Positions 1-10,881 of a stretch of 34,629 nt of DNA are shown here, piece after piece; within the stretch, counting starts at the first letter, position 1, and each line of letters starts with the position of its first letter. Below the pieces are notes generated by a model. That model had not been told where the DNA came from, did no database searches, and saw nothing but the letters and a program-made list of their open reading frames with translations. Both the position numbers and the translations under genes were made by a program. The stretch is from Elusimicrobiota bacterium (lineage in GTDB: Bacteria; Elusimicrobiota; Elusimicrobia; Elusimicrobiales; UBA9959). Location of the stretch: positions 1-34,629 of the forward strand of contig JAAYVI010000136.1 of NCBI GenBank assembly GCA_012517235.1, given 5' to 3'.

Positions 1-435
1 AATACCCTGAAAAATAAAAGAAGGTATCAATACGTTTCCGATTATTGTTAAAAAAGAAATAAAATAAAATAAACGTTCTTTGGCAAAATTTTTCAAAAAA
101 ATAGTCAATGACATCATAAAAATCCCGCAAAGAAAGAAAAAAAACAGTTTAACAATAATCGTTTCCGAAAAAATACGGCTTATCGATTCTATATTGCTTC
201 TATTAAGAGAAATATCTTTGGTGGCGGAATAATTAAAACCGTAATCCACTATGATAGAAAAATAAAAAATTATGGCGTAAGAGAAAGCCATTAAGCCGTA
301 TTTTTCCGGCCCTAAAACCCTAACGGTATAAGGAACGGTAAAAAGAGGTATTATATAGTTTAAATAGTGGACTATGGAAAGAGAAACAAAATTTTCAAAA
401 ATCCTGCTATTTAACGCTTTTTTTAGAATGTTCAT
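1..435 (-). CDS. wzx: Polysaccharide flippase, Wzx/RfbX family (3' end beyond window)
   Basis: Partial gene: the first 145 codons are visible and the frame stays open to the window edge. Seen: hydrophobic segments near residues 14-35, 46-66, 96-112 and 120-145, and the N-terminal signature NY..PL.TVPY (26-36) followed by RVLGPEKYG (39-47). These are typical of MATE-like O-antigen/teichoic-acid flippases, which move undecaprenyl-linked repeat units across the inner membrane. The ATG at 435 overlaps the 3' end of the upstream O-antigen ligase gene by 29 bases, implying translational coupling. It follows wza, wzc and a ligase/polymerase gene, which supports Wzx rather than a multidrug MATE pump. 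Family call is strong; the substrate cannot be told. Confidence 0.85.
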   Translation of the reverse strand, partial: MNILKKALNSRIFENFVSLSIVHYLNYIIPLFTVPYTVRVLGPEKYGLMAFSYAIIFYFSIIVDYGFNYSATKDISLNRSNIESISRIFSETIIVKLFFFFLCGIFMMSLTIFLKNFAKERLFYFISFLTIIGNVLIPSFIFQGI

Positions 436-1801
436 CAATAATTCCGTTAATTTGATTATATTTTATACTAATTAAGGCCGTTAAAAACCAAAAAGGTTCC
501 ATTATTCTCACTATTATGAACGTATTTACTCCTACGCCTTGTATCAATAGACCTATCAAAGCGCATAAAAGCCCCAATCCCAGAGATCTCGAAACAATAT
601 CGTCTCCTTTGGAATAAACGAAATAGAAAACCTTAAATAAAGAAAAAAGAAGCCAAATAAAAGCTATCATGCCTAAAATGCCGGTTTCCCCCAATATCAA
701 AGCGTATTGATTGTCCCCCAAACCTATCCCGGTTACGCCTCTGCCCAAAATCGGATATACGGGCAATACGTTATTAATAACTCTTGTCAAAGATTCGTAT
801 CTCAAATAGGCCGATTCTTCCAACTTTATTTCGCCGAAAGGCGTATTTATGGGATGTATCGCGTCTTGTCCGGAATATGTATTTTTTATTCTATTTTCTA
901 CTTTATCGCTTAATCCCGGCAATGTCAAAGTGAAAATAATTCCCAATATGGAAGCCGATATAAAAAGTACTTTTCTTTTTTTGGAAAAAAACAAAAAAGC
1001 CATAAAAGAAAAAATGAAACCCAAATAAGAAGCTCTGGAAAAAGTATAAAGCAGAGACTGATACATAAAAACAGCCGTAACAGCCGCTCCAAAAAATATT
1101 TTCCCGGAAGACTCAGACATCAAAGCCAATATTAAGGAAAAAGCTATTATATAATATCCTCCCAAAGACGCCGGCTCCGATTCTTTGGGAGAATTTAAAG
1201 GCGCTTCGAAAGGAGCGCTGGCCCTTATATCCGTACCCGAAGCATTAAAGTAATAATAATAAGAATAGGCTATGACTATTACCAATACCGCCCAAGCATA
1301 TTTTAAATATTTTGAAATATCTTTTTCGTCTTTTAAAATATTTAAAGTCATAAAATAAAGCATATAATACTCGATATATTTCAAAACATAAAAAAAAGCT
1401 TTTTTATAATCTATATCGCCTCTAAGAACTCCGAAAGATGTGGACAATATATAAACCGCCGTATATAAAATCAGAGGTTTTGTTATCGGACTTTTTGCAA
1501 ACCCGCCTTCTTGTTTAAAGATAGCGCTCTTGCCAAGCCAGGCAAAAAAAATCGTCACTAAAAATATATCGTCATATCTTAAAACTATTCCTCTTCCCGC
1601 TACTCCGCCGACCTGTAATTCCGGAGATAAAAGCATGGAAAATACCAGAAGTATCATACTGGATTTTGTGGAAAAAAAAGCAAATATGACGGTAAATGCG
1701 GCGATTATAAATATTAATATTTGATTTAAGCCGAAATTGACTACGAATCTGCCGGCAAATAAGAGCGCGGCCGCAAAAAACAGTAAAACTAATATTTGCA
1801 T
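407..1801 (-). CDS. O-antigen ligase/polymerase family membrane protein (Wzy/WaaL-like)
   Basis: A 464-residue integral membrane protein with about ten to twelve predicted hydrophobic helices. A large periplasmic loop of roughly residues 295-345 lies before the last helices, the architecture of the Wzy_C/RfaL family. Such proteins polymerise repeat units or attach glycan to a lipid or protein acceptor at the periplasmic face. Its ATG directly follows the stop of the wzc-like gene and its tail overlaps the flippase start. Primary sequence does not separate polymerase from ligase reliably; the position between wzc and wzx is compatible with a Wzy polymerase. The C-terminal tail is polar (DEHSKKS). 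Confidence 0.8.
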   Translation of the reverse strand: MQILVLLFFAAALLFAGRFVVNFGLNQILIFIIAAFTVIFAFFSTKSSMILLVFSMLLSPELQVGGVAGRGIVLRYDDIFLVTIFFAWLGKSAIFKQEGGFAKSPITKPLILYTAVYILSTSFGVLRGDIDYKKAFFYVLKYIEYYMLYFMTLNILKDEKDISKYLKYAWAVLVIVIAYSYYYYFNASGTDIRASAPFEAPLNSPKESEPASLGGYYIIAFSLILALMSESSGKIFFGAAVTAVFMYQSLLYTFSRASYLGFIFSFMAFLFFSKKRKVLFISASILGIIFTLTLPGLSDKVENRIKNTYSGQDAIHPINTPFGEIKLEESAYLRYESLTRVINNVLPVYPILGRGVTGIGLGDNQYALILGETGILGMIAFIWLLFSLFKVFYFVYSKGDDIVSRSLGLGLLCALIGLLIQGVGVNTFIIVRIMEPFWFLTALISIKYNQINGIIDEHSKKSVK

Positions 1802-3673
1802 TTATCTTTCCGCGTACTTGGAATAATCGTAATAATAATATCCGTACTTCGGCCCCATTTCCGAAGCTCTTACTCCGTTTAAAACGACTCCGATCATTTT
1901 GGCGTCGACTCCGGTAATTTGTTCTTTTGCTCTTTTAAGCGCGCCCCTTGCTATCTTGCCGGCTTTATATACCAACACGGCGCCGTCATTTTTCTTTGCC
2001 AAGATAACCGAATCGATGAAAAGCAATACCGGCGGAGCGTCAAAAACTATTATGTCAAATTCCGCTTTAAGCGAACCTATAAGATGTTCCCAATCGGCAT
2101 TATCCAAAAGATCTACCACATTTGCCGGAGCAGTACCGCATGTCATTATCTTCAAATTCTCTATACCGGAAAATCTTATTACATGCTCGGCTTTTATTTC
2201 GCCGGTCAAAAAATCCGAGCTTTCTCTTAAAACATCCCTATAATCGTACTTTTTGGCCAATACGTCGCTAAGGCCCGGCTGTTTCGGAATTCCGAATATT
2301 TGGTATATGACCGGTCTTCTCATATCCGCATCTATCAAAAGAGTTCTAAGGCCGGAATTGGCCGCGGCAAGGGAAAAATTTATTGCGGTTAAGCTTTTAC
2401 CTTCGGCCGCTCCGGAAGAGCTGAAAACTACCGATATAGGACCTTTTTTGTTCATATTCGATATAATATTGGCTCTTAAGGTATGATAAGATTCTATCAC
2501 GCTTGCGGAATACTTTCTGTTGAAAAGAAGAACGCTTCTGAAAGCCTCCATGCCGAAACGTTCTTTTTTGAATATGTCTGTTAAAATATTGTCCAATCTC
2601 TTCTCGCTGGCTATATTGGGAATAAGTCCCAAAACAGGCAGTTTTATAAAATTTTCTATGTCTTCTATCGTACTTATGGAAACGTCCAAATTTTCCATAA
2701 GAAAAACAAAAACTATGGATAAAAACAAACCTAAAAGAATTCCGACAGACATATTTAATTTTGCGTTGGGCGATACCGGAATATTACTTACAAAAGAAGG
2801 ATTTACAACTTTCACGAAAGACACTATTGAAGAGAGACCTAATTTGGCTTCCTCGTATTGTTTGCTTATGGTAGTATAAAGCTCTTCCTGCAATCTTAAA
2901 TCTCTTGTTATTCTTGCCAAATCTAACTCTTGCGCCGGAATTTGAGAAAGCTTATTTTGAATATTTTCTATTCTTTTTTCCAAAGAAAGAACTTCCGGGT
3001 GATTTGGCGTATATTTTTCTAACATTTCCTTTCTTTTTATTTCAAGTTCGGCCAATTGATCGGCATAATAACTTCCTATGCCTGTTTTTGGGTTTTTTTC
3101 TATAAAATTTTTTCTTTGTTTTTCCAAAGACCTAAGTTTTTCTTCTATGTCGTTTTTTCTCGCAACTATATCGTCCAAAGTTTTTTTGGCTTGAAGACTT
3201 CTTTGCTCCAAATCATAATCGGAATAAGCCGATATTACGGCATTGACTATGTCGTTAGCCTTATAAGGATTATCGGATCTTGCGGATATGCTTATAAGAT
3301 TTGAATCTTGAACTCTATCCGCCCTATAGGATCCCAAAACCTCGGAAGGAGAAATCCTTAAAGAAGAATTATTTTTTTGTAAGCTGTAATTTAATTTACC
3401 CGCCGCTCTCGAAGCTATTTCCATCGAACCTATGACTTTTATTTCCGTAGATACGGTTCCCCACGGATCCGATTCGGCGACGTCGGCTCCGGGCAGTTTC
3501 GAATAGATATTGGGCGGCTGAGTGTTTATTATCGCCGAAGAGCTGTAAACCGTAGGCTGAAATTTGGTGTATACCGCGGTAGAAATCAAAGTGGCGGAAA
3601 AAATTAAAAGGGCCGGCCACTTCCTCCTGTTTATTATTCTCCAATAGTCGTATAAAGTAAGTTCGGGGTTCAT
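1802..3673 (-). CDS. wzc: Polysaccharide co-polymerase / tyrosine autokinase (Wzc-like)
   Basis: 623 residues. Residues 1-340 form a Wzz chain-length domain: a first membrane helix near 18-37, a coiled-coil periplasmic section with PNHPEV, then the proline-rich NPSFVSNIPVSPN stretch and a second helix near 310-330. The rest is a BY-kinase domain: Walker A GAAEGKS around residue 420, Walker A' LLIDADMRRP and Walker B IIVFDAPP. The C-terminus is a tyrosine cluster (YGYYYYDYSKY), the usual autophosphorylation site. The protein controls polymer length and export together with the outer-membrane Wza. Only about one base separates it from the upstream wza-like gene. Fusion of the Wzz and kinase parts is the proteobacterial arrangement, not the split Firmicutes one. 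Confidence 0.93.
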   Translation of the reverse strand: MNPELTLYDYWRIINRRKWPALLIFSATLISTAVYTKFQPTVYSSSAIINTQPPNIYSKLPGADVAESDPWGTVSTEIKVIGSMEIASRAAGKLNYSLQKNNSSLRISPSEVLGSYRADRVQDSNLISISARSDNPYKANDIVNAVISAYSDYDLEQRSLQAKKTLDDIVARKNDIEEKLRSLEKQRKNFIEKNPKTGIGSYYADQLAELEIKRKEMLEKYTPNHPEVLSLEKRIENIQNKLSQIPAQELDLARITRDLRLQEELYTTISKQYEEAKLGLSSIVSFVKVVNPSFVSNIPVSPNAKLNMSVGILLGLFLSIVFVFLMENLDVSISTIEDIENFIKLPVLGLIPNIASEKRLDNILTDIFKKERFGMEAFRSVLLFNRKYSASVIESYHTLRANIISNMNKKGPISVVFSSSGAAEGKSLTAINFSLAAANSGLRTLLIDADMRRPVIYQIFGIPKQPGLSDVLAKKYDYRDVLRESSDFLTGEIKAEHVIRFSGIENLKIMTCGTAPANVVDLLDNADWEHLIGSLKAEFDIIVFDAPPVLLFIDSVILAKKNDGAVLVYKAGKIARGALKRAKEQITGVDAKMIGVVLNGVRASEMGPKYGYYYYDYSKYAER

Positions 3674-3674
3674 A

Positions 3675-4364
3675 TTATCTTTTCGACGATATTATTCCTA
3701 TCGTCAGTCCGAAAGTGGCAAGCATCGTCCACGGAAGCAAATTATCGGTTATCCATTTACCGGCCGAAGTAAATTTCTTTCTCGGCACGTATACCACATC
3801 GCCCTGAGATAAAACTATATTTTTATCCAATTTTCCGGAAAAAAGCTCCGAAAGATTTACCTCAAAACTGGATTCTTTTAAGTCTCCTTTTTCGTCTTTT
3901 ACTTTTCTAAAAACTCTTATCTTTTCCGTTCTGGCATAATCGGCCAGGCCGCCGGCGGAAGCAATAAGATCCAATATTTTCATTCCTTCGTAATAGTCGT
4001 AATAGCCCGCCCTTTGAACCTGACCTATGGCCGCTACTTTATAAGATGAAAACTTTCTTACGCTTACCGTAACCGTAGGATTGGCGACATATTTTGAAAA
4101 TTTTGCCGTTAAAATTTTTTCAAGTTCGGATACGCTTAAAGAAGACACTTTAACGGAACCTAAAAGAGGAATATCTACGCTGCCGTCGGGCTGCACCGTA
4201 ACTTCTTTTGAGAATTCTTCCGCGGGAGATACGTTTATGCTGACTACGTCTCCGGCGGAAATAAAATAACCTTTGTCGGAAAAAGAAGGCATTTCAAAAG
4301 CAAAAAGCGCGTTAAAAAAACCGGACATTAAAAAAGCTATAAAAACGGAAATTATCTTTTTCAT
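3675..4364 (-). CDS. wza: Polysaccharide export protein with SLBB domain (Wza-like)
   Basis: 229 residues. A signal peptide (residues 1-22) is followed by the polysaccharide export domain: YFISAGDVVSINV near 33-45 and QPDGSVDIPLLG near 58-69. One SLBB/soluble-ligand domain starts with VAAIGQVQRAGYY near 109-121, and QGDVVYVPRKKF follows near 187-198. A hydrophobic helix lies near the C-terminus (about 208-226). It probably forms or contacts the outer-membrane channel for the polymer. No lipobox cysteine is visible and there is only one SLBB domain, so it is shorter than E. coli Wza (about 380 residues) and resembles the short exporters of other phyla. It lies directly upstream of the wzc-like gene. 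Confidence 0.88.
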   Translation of the reverse strand: MKKIISVFIAFLMSGFFNALFAFEMPSFSDKGYFISAGDVVSINVSPAEEFSKEVTVQPDGSVDIPLLGSVKVSSLSVSELEKILTAKFSKYVANPTVTVSVRKFSSYKVAAIGQVQRAGYYDYYEGMKILDLIASAGGLADYARTEKIRVFRKVKDEKGDLKESSFEVNLSELFSGKLDKNIVLSQGDVVYVPRKKFTSAGKWITDNLLPWTMLATFGLTIGIISSKR

Positions 4365-4387: not shown

Positions 4388-4948
4388 TTATATGTTTTTA
4401 CCTTGCTGTCTTGAAAGCGCTTTTACTATGCTTCTTAGTTCTTCTATTTTCCCTTCCAATTCTCTTTCTTTTTCCGAAGACATCGGCAAAGATTGATTAT
4501 AAAATTTTTCCCTGATTTCAGCTCTTTGAGAAATATCTTTAATCGGTTCTTTATAAGAAGACGCCATAACATATCTAAAAAAAGCCGCGAAAGAAACTAT
4601 TGAAAAAAGCATAAAAGAAACGGTCCCGGCCAAAATAATATATTCTTTATCGGAAAAAATTCCTATAAGAATAACGCAAACAGAAGCCAAAAGGCCGAAA
4701 AGGAGAGATTCTTTATTTTCGCTCCAAACCGCATTAAATCTAGCCGAAGGGACAATTTCTTTAACTTGATTTCTCAATATGGGTGGTTGATAAGTTTTTT
4801 GCATTTGAGGAGGAGAAATTAAAGTGTTTTTTACCGGCAAAACGTTTTCTTGAGGTTTTTGCGAGTTTTCTTCCTCTTCGGATTCGAGATAAGAAGTCTC
4901 GGCCTTTAATTGTTCCAAAAGAGATTTTAAATCTTCATTTTTCTTCAT
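4388..4948 (-). CDS. Hypothetical membrane protein in polysaccharide operon
   Basis: 186 residues, not assigned to a family. Seen: an acidic, helix-prone N-terminus (residues 1-30), a Pro/Gln-rich linker (35-65), two closely spaced hydrophobic helices near 82-98 and 104-125, and a C-terminal basic/acidic amphipathic helix (about 135-183) that could form a coiled coil. Both tails would face the same side, most likely the cytoplasm. Its start overlaps the end of the upstream coiled-coil gene by 14 bases, and the wza-like gene follows 23 bases later. Inference: it may be a membrane anchor or adaptor between the cytoplasmic coiled-coil proteins and the export machinery. No homology is claimed. 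Confidence 0.75.
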   Translation of the reverse strand: MKKNEDLKSLLEQLKAETSYLESEEEENSQKPQENVLPVKNTLISPPQMQKTYQPPILRNQVKEIVPSARFNAVWSENKESLLFGLLASVCVILIGIFSDKEYIILAGTVSFMLFSIVSFAAFFRYVMASSYKEPIKDISQRAEIREKFYNQSLPMSSEKERELEGKIEELRSIVKALSRQQGKNI

Positions 4949-5666
4949 TTTTTTTCTCCGTCAAAGAAATAGAATATTTCTTTTCCCATTCGGATATCTT
5001 TTCCTGCTTCTTGATAATTTCCTTTTCCCTATGTTCCAAATTAGCTCTGACTTTTTCAAAACTTCTTATAAGATCCTTTTTTTTATTTATAAAATCTTCG
5101 TTCATATTTCTTTCTCTGGATTTGAGTTCCGCTATTTTTCTGGCATAATCCTTTTCTAAAGCGTACATTTTATTCTCAAGTTCTTTGTTTTTTTCTTCCC
5201 ATTTTTTAAGCATGGATTCTTCTTTTATTCTTACCTCTTCGTATAAAGCCTGTGTTTTGGATGAATATTCCATGGTAAGCCTTGTTTTTTCCAAAGCGAC
5301 TTCGGCCTTAATTTCGGCGGATTTGCTTTTTTCTAAAGAAACGGCCTCTTTGAGAGTTTTTATTTCTTCGGATAGCTTAAAAATTTCTTCTTCCAAAGCT
5401 TTCTTTTTTAAATAAAAATCTTGAGATTTTTTCTCAAACTCTTTTTTTAAGTCTTCTTTATCGGATTTAATTTCTTCCAATTTTTTCTTAAAATCTTCGG
5501 AAGTTTTTCCGGCAAGCTCTTCGTATGACACGAACTCGTCTTCATATTCTTCCATTATGGCGGACAGTTCGACGGAAGAAGGATTTTTTTCTTTCCAAAG
5601 TTTTTCGCAGAAAGATTTCAACCTGCCTATAAAGGCTTCCGGAACGCATTTTAATTCTTTTTTCAT
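4935..5666 (-). CDS. Coiled-coil protein, 243 aa, function unknown
   Basis: A soluble protein. Residues 1-55 are mixed and probably globular (LKSFCEKLWKEKN, then EEYEDEFVSYEEL). Residues 55-235 are almost continuous Glu/Lys-rich heptad-like coiled coil. There is no signal peptide, no membrane helix and no nucleotide-binding motif. It starts two bases after the stop of the 1562-residue coiled-coil gene and overlaps the next gene by 14 bases, so the three are surely co-transcribed and probably coupled. Its composition matches the giant neighbour, suggesting that the two assemble together; that is inference. Confidence 0.75.
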   Translation of the reverse strand: MKKELKCVPEAFIGRLKSFCEKLWKEKNPSSVELSAIMEEYEDEFVSYEELAGKTSEDFKKKLEEIKSDKEDLKKEFEKKSQDFYLKKKALEEEIFKLSEEIKTLKEAVSLEKSKSAEIKAEVALEKTRLTMEYSSKTQALYEEVRIKEESMLKKWEEKNKELENKMYALEKDYARKIAELKSRERNMNEDFINKKKDLIRSFEKVRANLEHREKEIIKKQEKISEWEKKYSISLTEKKNEEK

Positions 5667-5668
5667 AT

Positions 5669-8600
5669 TTACCTTGCCTTATTTTTATATTCCGATATGG
5701 CCCTGGTAAGTTCGAGCCTTAACTTTTCCAGCTCGGAATATTTTTTTGAATATTCTTTTTCCATCTCCAACTTTTTTCTTTCAAGATCCGCTTCCTTTTC
5801 TTCGTAGTTTTTCTTAATTTCCAATCTTTCGTTGTTCAAAGCGAAAGATTTTTCTTCGATTTTTCTTTCGAGTTCGGAGAAGTAAGATTGTTTTGCGGCC
5901 AAGGCCGAATCTTTTGCGGCCAAAGCTTTTTCCGCTTCCTCCAAAGCGCTTCTTAACTCTTCTATTCTCTTATTGTATAATTCTTTTAAAGTTTTTGTTT
6001 CCGATGCGAATTTATTTTCGGCTTCGAAATATTCCGATCTGTATTTGGAAAGCATTTCGGAAAATTTTTTCTCTTGCGCGGCCAGCTGCTCCGATAAGAG
6101 TCTGGAATAATTATCCCTATAAAGGGTTATTTCTTCTTTAAGTTTTTCCATTTTAGATTCGGCTTCTTTTAAAGCCGATTCTTTGGCTTCTACTTCTTTT
6201 GCCATTTTGTCTTTTTCTTCCAAGATACGGTTTTCAAGCCTTTCTATTTCCATAACGCTTCTTTCGTTTATATCCATTATTTCTTTTTGGGCTATATCGA
6301 GTTTTTCCTGAAGTATTTTCGTGGCGGAGGAGACAGCTTCTTCCATTTTTAAATTAAACTCTCTGGCAAAAGAAGCTGTAAGATCCGCTTTTTCTTTTAC
6401 AAACTCTTTTTCTTTTTCGGCTAGTTGAGCTATAAGTTCCGCTTGAGCCTTTGAAGACTGAGAAGCTTGCGCGTAGGCCTGCGAAAATTTTTCTTTTAAC
6501 ATGGCGTTTTCTTCTTTAATAGACGAAATAATTTTTTCATATTCTTCTTTAAGCGCTTTTATTGCCAAGTTCTTTTCTTCATCGGCTTGATTTTTTATTT
6601 TTGCTGCTTTTTCCGAGTAGATTTTAGCCTGTTGAGAAGAGAAAGAGGCTTTAAAACTTTCAATTTTTTCTTCTTCGTCTCTTTTTATTTGAGAAATTTC
6701 TTGAGAAAGAGATTTTATTTGTTCGTCTTTGGAATCTAAAACCCTTATAAGCTGGCTTATTTCTTGTTCGTATGCGGATATCTTAGCTTCCAAAGACTGA
6801 GTTTCGGCTTTAACCTGTTTTTCTATTCTTTCCAAAGATTCCGCTTCCATTTGGGCTTTTTGCTGAGCAAGTTTTCTTCTTGTTTCCACTTCCAAATCGG
6901 CCAATTTGCCGGCAAGAGCTTTGTTTTCTTCCAATGCGGCGGCCAATTTTTCTTGAGATTGAGCGTATTCGGCTTCGGCGGCGTCGGCTATTCTTTCCAA
7001 GTGATTCTTTTCGGAAATCCAATTGGATCTTTCTTTTTCGTATACCTCTTTATGTCTTTCGAGAGTTCTCTGAGATTCTTGATCGTATTGCATCTTAATC
7101 TCGGAAATTCTTTCTTGATTTTCTACTTTCATCGATTCTATCTTATTTTCATATTCCGCTTTTTGTTTTTCCAAAGATTTTTTTAAGATATCGTCAAATT
7201 TTTTCTCTTTTTCTAACATTTCTTCTCTTATTTTTTCAATCTCTTTTTCGTAAGATTCTATCTGAACGCAATAAGCGGACTTTTGGTTTTCTTTTTCCTT
7301 CTTTATCTGCTCAAGATCTCTAATAAAGCTTTCCGAAATCAATGTTTTTTCTTTTTCAAATTCTTTTTTCCTGTTTTCAAATTCCGAAGAAACGGCTTGA
7401 AGTTTTTGCGAATAGCTTTCGGAAAGTTCGCTTCTCAAAGAAGCTTCTCTTTGCGCGGATTGCTTTTGAACTTCGTTTAGAACTTGCGAAAAAGACTCCT
7501 CCTTGTAAGCCATCTCTCTTCTTAAAGAGTCTATTTTCTTTTCAAAATCTGCGATAAGTTGGGCTTTTTCTTTCTCAAAATTTGAAGTCTTATCGGCTAT
7601 GGCTTTGTTCAAAGACGCCAATTCTTTCTCGTAATAAGAAGACATCTCTTCTTTTTGCGCTGAAAAAGAAGATTTAATCGAAGATATCTTTTCTTCGTAT
7701 TCCGATGCTATTTTCTCTTTATCTAAATTACGCTTTTCGGATAAAGATTTCATCTCTTCTTGAGCGGCCGAAAGCTTCGCCTCGTAATCTTGTTTTAAAC
7801 TGTTAATAGACTTTTCCCATTCACCGGTCAACTCTTTTCTTAAATTCTCTTTCTCCCTTAAAGCTTTTTCCAAAGAAGAAGAATAAGACGATATTTTTTC
7901 TTCGTAAGACTTTATTATCTCTTCGCTTCTTTTTCTATAAGCTTCCGTTACCGCGCAAACGGCATTTTCCCCTCTTATCTTTTCTTCGTTTATTTTAACT
8001 TTAAGATCTTCGATCTCTTTTTCCAAAGATATTTTTTCTTTTTCCGCTTTCGACAATGCTTCCTTAACGGCAAAATCTTTTTTTGCTTTTTCGGCTTCTA
8101 TTCTGTCTTTTAAAGATTGCGCCGCGTTTTCCCAAGCTTTTCTTTCTTCTTCAAACCGAGCCTCTCTGGCGGCAAGATCCGAAGCGTTTTTATTTTTCAT
8201 CTCTTCGGCTAAGTTTATTAGTTCGGATTCCTTTTGAATAAGCATGTTTTCCAAAGCTTTAATTTTCTCCGCGCTTTCTCTAAGTTTTTCGCCGTAAAAC
8301 TCTTCGCTTTGAGATATCTGCAGACTCAATCTTTCTTCGTAATTTTTCCTAAGATCTTGGGTTTCTTTTTCAAATTTTCCTATTATCGCCGAAATCTCTT
8401 TTGATTTTTCGGATTCTTTTTCGGATATTATTTTTTTAAGTTCGGCTATTTCTTCGTCTCTTTTTTTGGCTATCATAGCCGATTCCGTGGAGAATTGGGC
8501 TCTCGCTTCCTGTAAATTCTTGGCATATTGCGCTTCTTTTGAAATTATTTCGTCGGATAATTTTTTTATTTCCTCGTCTTTTCCGGATAAAACCGATAAA

Positions 8601-10357
8601 AGAAAATCTTTCTCTTTTCGGGAGGAATTTCTTAATTCTTCTATTTGCAAATACAATTCTTTTTCCCTTGCCTCAAACTCCGCGGCTAAAGCTTCTCTGG
8701 CTTTTTGTCTTTCCGCCAAAAATTCTTTCTCGCTTTTCTCCACCAAGGAACGCAATTCTTCTATTCTCGCCGAATCGGCTTCTATTCTTGCCAGATAAGC
8801 GCAAGCCAAAGATGCTTTTTCTTCTTCGCTTTCCGCCGCAGCCGCCGCGAGATTTTCTCTTAAGCTATTTTTCCATTCTTGGGCGTCTTTTTCGGCTTGA
8901 GCCAAATATTTGGCCGAAATTTCGTTTTTCTCTCTTAAAAAATTTTCCGACATCTCGTTTATTTTTGTTTCATACTCTTTTTTTAAATCCGAAATTTTAG
9001 AAATTAAAGAATCTTTTTCGCTTTCCAAATACGAAATTTTCTCTCCTAAAGATTTTTTTACCGAAGATATCAAAGAATCTTTTTGAGAAATTATTTTTTC
9101 CGCTTTTATTTCAAATTCTTTTTCTTTATTAATAATTTCCTCTTTGAGATTTTTTATTTCCGAATATGCTTGGGACAGTTTTTCTTCAAAATCTTTTTTT
9201 AAAGATACTTCTCTTTCTTCCGCCTGTCTTTCGCTTTCTTTTCTCATTTCTTCTAACTGTCTGTCTTTTTCCGCGGAAAGTTCCATATATTTTACTTTAA
9301 GATTTTCCCTTTCTTTGGAAAATGAGATTTCCAAATCTATAAGAGCTTTTCTCAAATTATCGTTTTCGACCGCAAATTTTTTCCTTTCTTCCTCAAACGC
9401 CGATCTGTCTTTGGCATATTTTTCTTCGGTTTCTTTTATTTTTGAAAACATTTCATCGTCGAATCTCTTTTTAATTTCCAAAACCTTATCTTCCAAAACC
9501 TTTATTTGTTCTTGAGCTTGCCAGTATTTTTCGGCCATTTCTTTGGCGCCGCTTTCAAGCCTGCTTCTTTCTTTATCCCATGCTATATGCAAGGTCTTTA
9601 TTTCCTGTTTTCTCTCTTCCTGCAAAGCGTTCATCTTGGCGTCGAAAAAAGCCCTCAATTGTTCTTTATACTTTTCAAAAGATTGAGCGGCTTCTTCTTT
9701 TTTGGCCAAATACTCGCTTTCCAAAGCCGATTCTTTGGATTTAAGCCAATCTTCTTTTTCCCTCAAACCGTTTTCCGCCAGAGACGCTCTTTCCAAAAGC
9801 TCTTTTTCTCTTTTCGAATAGGATTCCTGCAAAGAAGACATTCTTTCGTCAAAAGATTTTTGAAGTTCGAAATTTAAAGAATCGTACTTTTTTTGGGCTT
9901 CGGCAAGCTTTGCGGAATATTGGCTTTCGGTTTCCAAAAGTCTTTTATTCCAATTTTCTATCATGTTCTTTTGAGATTTATCCAATTCTTCAAATTTTCT
10001 CTGATAATCGTTTTCAAGTTCTCTTCTTAAAATATCTATTCTGGCTTCTTTTTCGACAAGCTGACTTATATTTAGTTTCCCTTCAGAAAGAAGCTGCATG
10101 GTAGCTTCCAGTTTTTTGTAAAATTCTTCCTTATCTTCTACGGTTTTTATTCTGGCGGAGAAAGAGTCCCTTATGCTTTCGAGCTTTGCGGACAGTTCTT
10201 TATTTGCGTTTTCGGCGATATCCAAATTTTTCTTAAGATCCAAGCTTTCTTTTTCCATTCCGGCTATTTTTTCCAAAGCCCAGCGCAAAGTCATCTTAGC
10301 CGTATCCAAACTCGAAACTTCGCTTATGAGGTTTTCTATTTCGTTTTTATCGTTCAT
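5669..10357 (-). CDS. Giant coiled-coil protein, 1562 aa, function unknown
   Basis: One uninterrupted frame of 1562 codons. After a short distinctive N-terminus (SSLDTAKMTLRWALEKI near residues 14-30) the chain is nearly all Glu/Lys/Ser/Ala-rich with heptad-like hydrophobic spacing to the end. There is no signal peptide, membrane helix, Walker motif or proline-rich break, so it is not SMC or Rad50. If fully helical at 1.5 angstroms per residue the rod would be roughly 0.2 micrometres long. The start at 10357 is supported by a GGAG ribosome binding site about 8 bases upstream and a TATAAT box at 10401-10406. It heads the operon that continues into the wza/wzc/wzx genes. A cytoskeletal or scaffolding role is possible but unproven. 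Confidence 0.85.
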   Translation of the reverse strand: MNDKNEIENLISEVSSLDTAKMTLRWALEKIAGMEKESLDLKKNLDIAENANKELSAKLESIRDSFSARIKTVEDKEEFYKKLEATMQLLSEGKLNISQLVEKEARIDILRRELENDYQRKFEELDKSQKNMIENWNKRLLETESQYSAKLAEAQKKYDSLNFELQKSFDERMSSLQESYSKREKELLERASLAENGLREKEDWLKSKESALESEYLAKKEEAAQSFEKYKEQLRAFFDAKMNALQEERKQEIKTLHIAWDKERSRLESGAKEMAEKYWQAQEQIKVLEDKVLEIKKRFDDEMFSKIKETEEKYAKDRSAFEEERKKFAVENDNLRKALIDLEISFSKERENLKVKYMELSAEKDRQLEEMRKESERQAEEREVSLKKDFEEKLSQAYSEIKNLKEEIINKEKEFEIKAEKIISQKDSLISSVKKSLGEKISYLESEKDSLISKISDLKKEYETKINEMSENFLREKNEISAKYLAQAEKDAQEWKNSLRENLAAAAAESEEEKASLACAYLARIEADSARIEELRSLVEKSEKEFLAERQKAREALAAEFEAREKELYLQIEELRNSSRKEKDFLLSVLSGKDEEIKKLSDEIISKEAQYAKNLQEARAQFSTESAMIAKKRDEEIAELKKIISEKESEKSKEISAIIGKFEKETQDLRKNYEERLSLQISQSEEFYGEKLRESAEKIKALENMLIQKESELINLAEEMKNKNASDLAAREARFEEERKAWENAAQSLKDRIEAEKAKKDFAVKEALSKAEKEKISLEKEIEDLKVKINEEKIRGENAVCAVTEAYRKRSEEIIKSYEEKISSYSSSLEKALREKENLRKELTGEWEKSINSLKQDYEAKLSAAQEEMKSLSEKRNLDKEKIASEYEEKISSIKSSFSAQKEEMSSYYEKELASLNKAIADKTSNFEKEKAQLIADFEKKIDSLRREMAYKEESFSQVLNEVQKQSAQREASLRSELSESYSQKLQAVSSEFENRKKEFEKEKTLISESFIRDLEQIKKEKENQKSAYCVQIESYEKEIEKIREEMLEKEKKFDDILKKSLEKQKAEYENKIESMKVENQERISEIKMQYDQESQRTLERHKEVYEKERSNWISEKNHLERIADAAEAEYAQSQEKLAAALEENKALAGKLADLEVETRRKLAQQKAQMEAESLERIEKQVKAETQSLEAKISAYEQEISQLIRVLDSKDEQIKSLSQEISQIKRDEEEKIESFKASFSSQQAKIYSEKAAKIKNQADEEKNLAIKALKEEYEKIISSIKEENAMLKEKFSQAYAQASQSSKAQAELIAQLAEKEKEFVKEKADLTASFAREFNLKMEEAVSSATKILQEKLDIAQKEIMDINERSVMEIERLENRILEEKDKMAKEVEAKESALKEAESKMEKLKEEITLYRDNYSRLLSEQLAAQEKKFSEMLSKYRSEYFEAENKFASETKTLKELYNKRIEELRSALEEAEKALAAKDSALAAKQSYFSELERKIEEKSFALNNERLEIKKNYEEKEADLERKKLEMEKEYSKKYSELEKLRLELTRAISEYKNKAR

Positions 10358-10400
10358 AATTTTCTCCGCTTAACAAAACTCTTTCGCCTTTTATATTTTT

Positions 10401-10406
10401 ATTATA
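10401..10406 (-). promoter_or_regulatory. -10 box (TATAAT) for the coiled-coil/polysaccharide operon
   Basis: Read on the minus strand this is a perfect TATAAT, 44 bases before the ATG at 10357. No convincing -35 hexamer is seen at 16-18 bases. It is the only obvious promoter element for the operon that runs out of the window at position 1. Confidence 0.45.
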
Positions 10407-10467
10407 CAAGAGAGCGGGTTTTATTTATGTTACATTTTTGTAAAATTTATATTTAGAAGGAAAGACT

Positions 10468-10881
10468 ATGAGAAAAAAGATATTAGTCTCAATACTGCTT
10501 TTTTCCTTTTTATTTTTCTTTAAAAAAAGCGAAATATTATCTTTGCTAATTTCAATACCTTTGGAAGTATCGGTATCCTTCCCCTCCGGAGAATATTTTT
10601 CACCCAACAATGTTTTGTTAATAGCGGTTAAAAACGATAAAGGAGTTCCGATAGGGCTAAAAAGAATCATAAATCCGGTATATCCTCTTGAAACAAAAAT
10701 CTCGCGACAAGACATATTTATGCCCGGATTGGTTTCTTCCAAACTCGAAATATACGCCGAGATGAATAAAAGCGGAGAAATAGGTTCCAAAGAAAAAGGC
10801 GGCTTTTATTCTTCTAAAACTTTTAAAACTTTTATAATTTCTTCTTCGATAGGTATAAATCTTGATTCAAAAAAACAATAA
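10468..10881 (+). CDS. Membrane-anchored protein resembling the CcmI/CycH C-terminal domain
   Basis: 137 residues. An N-terminal hydrophobic helix (about 5-30) acts as signal or anchor, followed by a small domain. The order LLIAVKNDKG.PIGLKRI (50-67), YPLETKIS (72-79), MPGL (85-88) and AEMNKSG (97-103) matches my recollection of the Ig-like C-terminal domain of the cytochrome c maturation factor CcmI/CycH (there: ...PLAVKRI...PLTVTL.D...MMPG..LS...V.ARISKSG). In CcmI this domain works in the periplasm in apocytochrome handling. Here it stands alone, without TPRs and without other ccm genes nearby. The start is supported by AGAAGGA seven bases before the ATG. It is divergent from the coiled-coil operon. 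Family call is moderate; a role in haem delivery is not shown. Confidence 0.6.
   Translation: MRKKILVSILLFSFLFFFKKSEILSLLISIPLEVSVSFPSGEYFSPNNVLLIAVKNDKGVPIGLKRIINPVYPLETKISRQDIFMPGLVSSKLEIYAEMNKSGEIGSKEKGGFYSSKTFKTFIISSSIGINLDSKKQ

Follow-up and report, generated by a model that had tools for sequence, protein, structure and literature searches.

The trio and the exporter operon

The window analysed here is one entire contig (JAAYVI010000136.1, 34.6 kb) of a bacterium from the phylum Elusimicrobiota, order Elusimicrobiales, whose genome measures 1.94 Mb and is 97% complete. On its minus strand, the genes of a giant rod protein (A), a mid rod protein (B) and a two-helix membrane protein (C), together called the trio, are followed head-to-tail by wza, wzc and wzy (Table 1). 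A sequence-only reading of the window had reported frames of 1562, 243 and 186 residues, with a gap of 2 bases and then an overlap of 14, followed by wza, wzc, a ligase/polymerase gene and wzx at spacings of no more than about 25 bases. All frames are in place; the gaps are 23, 1 and 0 bases, and wzx starts at about position 435. That inventory was incomplete, having missed a conserved divergent gene on the plus strand (10468-10881).

Wza matches PF02563 (E=1e-20) and SLBB_2 (4e-10); its best NCBIfam match is TIGR03027, at 126.2 bits. Wzc matches Wzz, GNVR and AAA_31, scores 155.7 bits against TIGR01007 (above the cut-off), and has intact Walker motifs (Walker A GAAEGKS) and a tyrosine-rich tail, YGYYYYDYSKYAER. 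Wzy matches PF04932 above the cut-off (E=7e-9). Wzx is truncated in the window and whole at the orthologous position in locus L030, with matches to PF01943/PF13440. With the Wza domains, a Wzc that includes the kinase part, Wzy and Wzx, the exporter belongs to the Wzx/Wzy-Wza/Wzc type.

A, B and C have no convincing match in Pfam, NCBIfam or PDB. Profile searches with the N-terminal 60 residues of A and with C had been proposed by the sequence-only reading; run with the heads of A and B and with C against Pfam, NCBIfam, PHROGs and PDB, they returned only weak, coiled-coil-type or chance matches.

Table 1. Features of the window (TM, transmembrane)
Feature	Position	Strand	Basis
Component A, giant helical rod protein, 1562 residues	5669..10357	-	Reading frame; no TM, no proline
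N-terminal head of A, residues 1-125, motif DTA[RK]MTLRWALE, heptad coil	9983..10357	-	Alignment, AlphaFold2, periodicity
Rod of A, residues 113-1452, hydrophobic period ~3.63, length varies between species	6002..10021	-	Periodicity, alignment
C-terminal tail of A, residues 1453-1562, conserved, ending ELExxRxELxRAIxEYKxR	5672..6001	-	Orthologue comparison
Component B, second rod protein, 243 residues	4935..5666	-	Starts 2 bases after A gene
Conserved head of B, motif CVPxxLxxRLxxxxxxLWxEKNPxxVxLxxIxEEF	5442..5666	-	75-residue alignment
Component C, membrane hairpin protein, 186 residues	4388..4948	-	14-base overlap with B gene
Membrane hairpin of C, residues 69-133	4550..4744	-	Hydropathy and AlphaFold2 model
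wza-type outer-membrane polysaccharide export protein	3675..4364	-	23-base gap after C; Poly_export + SLBB
wzc-type co-polymerase / tyrosine autokinase	1802..3673	-	1-base gap after wza; TIGR01007, motifs
Wzy_C / O-antigen ligase-like polymerase	407..1801	-	0-base gap after wzc; PF04932
wzx-like flippase start, truncated by window edge	1..435 (start ~435)	-	Whole wzx at orthologous position in L030
Intergenic region between divergent genes, likely holding operon promoter	10358..10467	.	Gene layout
Conserved divergent gene, 137 residues, one N-terminal TM	10468..10881	+	68 homologous open reading frames; homologues match PF23892

Structure and periodicity of the rods

The 1562 residues of A include 0 prolines, 11 glycines and 48 tyrosines, and hydropathy finds no transmembrane stretch in A or B. 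Both ends of the giant are conserved, the head aligning at 52-92% identity with 39 invariant columns; the middle differs even among close relatives, by insertions of 153 and 444 residues, and full-length orthologues in the family of the host (hereafter the family) range from 729 to 2957 residues. DNA tandem repeats within the giant gene amount to short chance runs. The giant at L040:6605-10393 has a strong 98-residue internal repeat (98/27 = 3.63), which suggests that the rod there has grown through in-phase duplication. The sequence-only reading had called the N-terminal 60 residues the non-repetitive part; this end is no globular domain of its own, as AlphaFold2 models it as long helix, with one helix at residues 2-91, a break near 92-96 and a second helix at 97-123 (mean predicted local distance difference test score, pLDDT, 84.6).

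The description of A as nearly pure coiled coil holds as far as a helical rod is concerned and fails for the canonical heptad. Hydrophobic periodicity of A peaks at 3.6-3.67 residues, 21-22 standard deviations above shuffled sequences; only the first ~112 residues have a heptad-like period (3.46-3.5), and the remainder stays at ~3.63. The period outside the head is 3.62-3.64 in 17/17 giants with 200-residue windows, and 3.625-3.635 in all seven giants run with 400-residue windows. The same method gives 3.50-3.51 for the arms of SMC from the same genome, 3.43-3.53 for E. coli MukB, and 3.60 for B. An unstrained helix has a pitch of 3.63, lower values giving a left-handed and higher values a right-handed supercoil (PMC4786415). 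As the ~3.63 period equals this undistorted pitch, the middle of the giant is predicted to be a straight, non-supercoiled rod. A continuous helix of 1562 residues would be ~230 nm long at 0.15 nm per residue, and the lengths across the family would be 110-440 nm.

The repeat units of A are a mixture of 7 and 11 residues in an order not shared among giants, so that the mean pitch is conserved and the unit pattern is not. A 7+11+11 tiling was rejected, heptads and hendecads being mixed without strict order, and so was a strict 29-residue repeat as a common rule: lag 11 dominates the pooled giants, and lag 29 leads only in the giant of the window. The hydrophobic stripe of A is narrow, with only 26% large hydrophobics and with aromatics (F, Y and W pooled) at its centre; the rod has a net charge of -46, and its E and K residues pair at i, i+3 and i+4 as they do in coiled coils. 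As a structural claim, the rods would be very long coiled coils almost without supercoil, in which mean pitch is conserved, and length and sequence are not.

Hydropathy places the transmembrane stretches of C at residues 81-99 and 104-122. The AlphaFold2 model consists of a short N-terminal helix (DLKxLLxxLK), a disordered linker, the two-helix hairpin and a C-terminal helix; with its hairpin between N- and C-terminal helices, the modelled C has the build of an anchor. Products of the third gene at other loci have N-terminal segments that, by eye, resemble DLKxLLxxLK.

Linkage of the trio to the exporter

Linkage was counted by profile searches over 295 genomes of the phylum. The wza subtype of the window was delimited at 339 bits or more; the next group scores 244 or less. 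In 29/29 family genomes with this subtype, C lies upstream of wza on the same strand, with a gap of 30-419 bases in 28 of them and of 2.5 kb in one. At the latter (L279:3135-5600), a second B gene, coding for a B head and an 821-residue rod, is inserted between C and wza. A search with C matched 26/61 near genomes, nearly all matches lying between the mid rod gene and wza, and the whole giant-mid-TM-wza-wzc-wzy block was found in many contigs of the family. The sequence-only reading had asked whether the trio sits beside wza/wzc in other genomes; it does so throughout these 29, and in other families in other gene orders. Another wza-wzc type, with weaker scores, is present both in this family and in its sister family f2, which has small genomes and is presumably the gut Elusimicrobiaceae; among the loci read, this type never has the trio next to it. 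Gene order conserved across the family, the lack of prolines and the periodicity are together more than chance.

Rod genes elsewhere in the phylum

The DTA[RK]MTLRWALE head opens long helical proteins phylum-wide, in 93/295 genomes at E <= 0.001, although the weakest of these matches may be ordinary coiled coils. All named relatives carrying the head are Elusimicrobiota, several of them Elusimicrobiales; a few records are titled only 'bacterium'. The B head was detected in 50/295 genomes, and in 18 of the 20 genomes outside the family that have it, a giant-type head is encoded on the same strand no more than 2 kb away. A and B genes are thus a recurrent pair.

The surroundings of the giant vary. 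At L275 the order is giant-C-wza-wzc; L163 has C-wza-wzc adjoining two giant-type genes, as well as an XrtA-type ATPase (TIGR03015, below its cut-off), and L167 is arranged similarly to L163. At L111, L112, L115 and L116 the A-B pair is accompanied by a third, membrane-type gene. In family f8 (L104-L107) the giant adjoins a different wza/wzc type, in the order wza-wzc-giant; the next gene codes for a protein with one TM stretch and a distal part that matches CBM48 near the cut-off.

Several loci have further peculiarities. The segment L112:3108-10884 comprises A-B-C, a second B-like gene, a 513-residue gene and wzc, and can be read as a doubled set of putative scaffold genes that precedes the gene of the kinase. 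Proteins of ~1770 residues with signal-like starts follow the wza-wzc-giant block at L105:7902-13211 and L106:13753-19110, and are possible surface partners. At L101, L163, L270 and L273, proteins of 390-450 residues starting like M[KRD]FS(D/K) adjoin wza or the giant, and one of them has a weak HD_5 match. The exporter is absent at L202:9888-13750; the genes after the giant there code for a TM rod protein, a protein with a sigma-54 DNA-binding domain and a histidine kinase.

Paralogues of the giant also occur. The host genome has one of 913 residues (L152:8842-11583, contig C138), in which the head motif reads SDIETAKKSLRWTLDKI; its gene has tmk/holB-like genes nearby, and export genes are far away. 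At L153:6116-12001, a second paralogue (~1040 residues) precedes a pure rod protein of ~900 residues, making another rod pair without export genes; pairs of this type occur in other family members. A giant-type gene of 1098 residues lies near, and divergent to, an mreB-like gene (L159:7091-12306), and in two f7 genomes (L161, L164) giant-type genes are divergent to RND efflux operons.

Comparison with known systems

Wzx/Wzy exporters of the group-1 capsule or exopolysaccharide type have the same set of Wza with Poly_export and SLBB, Wzc with co-polymerase and tyrosine kinase parts, Wzy_C and Wzx; what sets the present operon apart is that its first genes code for two long rods and a membrane hairpin. 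A literature text search found no described Wza/Wzc exporter headed by such genes. To our knowledge, Wzx/Wzy export operons are normally devoid of cytoplasmic rods of this size, and we know of no internal scaffold for an exporter of the Wza/Wzc type. The best NCBIfam match of Wza belongs to the XrtA/PEP-CTERM exopolysaccharide loci, and Wzc matches there too, but these family matches fall below their cut-offs. The exosortase PF09721 is absent from the host genome (97% complete) and present in 1/37 genomes searched. Given that absence, and TIGR03027 at 126.2 bits against a cut-off of 180, the XrtA system proper was rejected.

Other long coiled-coil proteins offer partial likenesses. HmpF of the cyanobacterial pilus/polysaccharide motility system, likened here by its description, is also a long coiled-coil protein with a link to a system of the cell surface (PMC12288463); it is confined to cyanobacteria, and its action is on type IV pili. 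In striated fibre assemblin (SFA) of algal flagellar roots, a 29-residue repeat (29/8 = 3.625) underlies the rod, which forms 2-nm protofilaments (PMC6070942), and the strongest lag of the window giant is also 29. SFA, however, is eukaryotic and of ~30 kDa, most giants hold the mean period only, with no strict 29-residue unit, and Pfam gives no SFA family match for the giant. Mad20, Mad23, Mad25 and Mad26 of deep-branching magnetotactic bacteria are coiled-coil proteins from a single cluster with an ordering role in the cell (PMC12748827); what they order are magnetosomes, and magnetotactic Elusimicrobiota reportedly lack the chain-forming Mad proteins. The long coiled-coil arms of SMC/MukB provide another likeness, and B and A have weak NCBIfam matches to SMC-like families; the heptad arms nevertheless differ in period (3.50 in SMC of the host, 3.63 in the giant), and the giant has no match to SMC_N or to an AAA ATPase head. 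Neither Rod_CreS nor Filament, the models for crescentin and intermediate-filament-like proteins, matches A, B or C of the window.

A proposed membrane-anchored scaffold and its alternatives

We propose that the trio is a membrane-anchored rod scaffold organising the Wzx/Wzy-Wza/Wzc-type exporter, and give this proposal about an even chance of being right. C would sit in the inner membrane as a hairpin, presenting cytoplasmic helices at both ends. A and B would be long helical rods in the cytoplasm, pairing with each other and with C, probably via the conserved heads and the conserved tail of A, and perhaps self-assembling. The length and sequence of the giant would be free to drift provided that the rod stays straight in the cell. 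Such sub-membrane rods might affect export by clustering or positioning the export complexes, or by keeping several of them in a row. The sequence-only reading had suggested a filament or scaffold anchored by the small membrane protein, and the geometry agrees with it: the rods fit, and the AlphaFold2 model gives C an anchor-like build. Its further idea, that secretion might be coupled to cell shape or motility, gained no support: the host genome encodes MreB and several PilB/PilT-type ATPases, with nothing tying these to the trio. The placing and clustering of bacterial polysaccharide export machines are mostly unknown; if the proposal is true, an internal scaffold is encoded with the machine itself.

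Several observations weigh against this scaffold. Three genomes of genus g12 (L202-L204) keep the giant, along with pth and the divergent gene, but lack this exporter, and the same holds for the giant in G014 (L052), where the B/C gene is shrunken; paralogues sharing the head motif stand far from export genes. Because giants survive without the exporter and paralogues lie elsewhere, the wider giant family is not dedicated to export. The closest outgroup wza-wzc-wzy loci, L270-L274, are without the trio, so the join between trio and exporter is either old and often lost, or was made more than once. The head tree does not decide between the two. Its placement of some distant rows (L275, L118, L167) is unsure owing to long branches. 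The putative contacts among A, B, C and Wzc are read from gene order alone, and a period of 3.63 would also be compatible with an amphipathic helix at a membrane surface.

Within the family, therefore, the exporter subtype implies the trio (29/29), whereas the giant, as L202-L204 and L052 testify, does not imply the exporter. The sequence-only reading had held that relatives with wza/wzc but no trio, and the trio elsewhere, would make the link accidental. Part of this was found, as other wza/wzc types lack the trio and four giants lack the exporter; but with the subtype never seen apart from the trio in the family, this finding does not render the link accidental. The trio-less wza/wzc types and the four relatives that keep the giant without the exporter speak for the rods being a separate module in the service of the exporter rather than simply one of its parts.

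The main rival, that A-B-C is a general shape or polarity scaffold of Elusimicrobiota with the exporter merely in its operon or one of several clients, is a serious minority possibility. The four exporter-less giants speak for it, as do the paralogues that neighbour tmk/holB or that stand divergent to mreB or to RND efflux genes, the association of A-B-C with other partners in some families, and the clear MreB of the host genome. A purely general cytoskeleton fits poorly with the exporter subtype never being without the trio in the family, and with rod genes adjoining wza/wzc in more than one gene order. The scaffold proposal can also be extended to a bolder form, which we consider doubtful: A-B-C would be a cytoskeletal module new to science and specific to the phylum. 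Selection would hold the rod straight, at the pitch of an undistorted helix, and let its length and sequence drift; assembled beneath the inner membrane, the rods would carry exporters in fixed arrays, making this the first dedicated internal Wza/Wzc scaffold and a new structural class of bacterial filament. In any case, the trio adds three unnamed protein families, with sequence profiles, from a phylum with very few cultured members.

It is improbable that the rods are instead signalling adaptors, which as substrates of the Wzc tyrosine kinase or as its organisers would tune chain length or assembly and not position the machine. Wzc, two genes from C, does keep its Walker motifs and tyrosine-rich tail, and the giant offers 48 tyrosines; many of these are probably buried, since the pooled aromatics occupy the centre of the hydrophobic stripe. 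Moreover, the partner of the f8 giant is a different wza/wzc type, and a range of 729-2957 residues is hard to reconcile with a ruler or a fixed stoichiometry. Equally little credence can be given to the giant as a single long amphipathic helix that lies flat against the inner membrane in the manner of perilipins or apolipoproteins, rather than a helix bundle: its period yields the straight hydrophobic stripe that surface-lying needs, and 11-residue spacing is the commonest, but the net charge of -46, the narrow stripe with only 26% large hydrophobics, the coiled-coil-like E/K pairing and the separate membrane protein encoded alongside all count against such a coat.

Neighbouring genes

The genes pth, rplY, prs and glmU lie upstream of the trio, and this neighbourhood is retained across the family. 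A promoter scan of 10358..10467 gave a result no better than chance. Homologues of the divergent gene were found as 68 open reading frames in the fetched loci (some loci overlap), those listed being divergent to the giant; in the homologues from L280 and L202, the Ig-like CycH domain (PF23892) scores above its cut-off.

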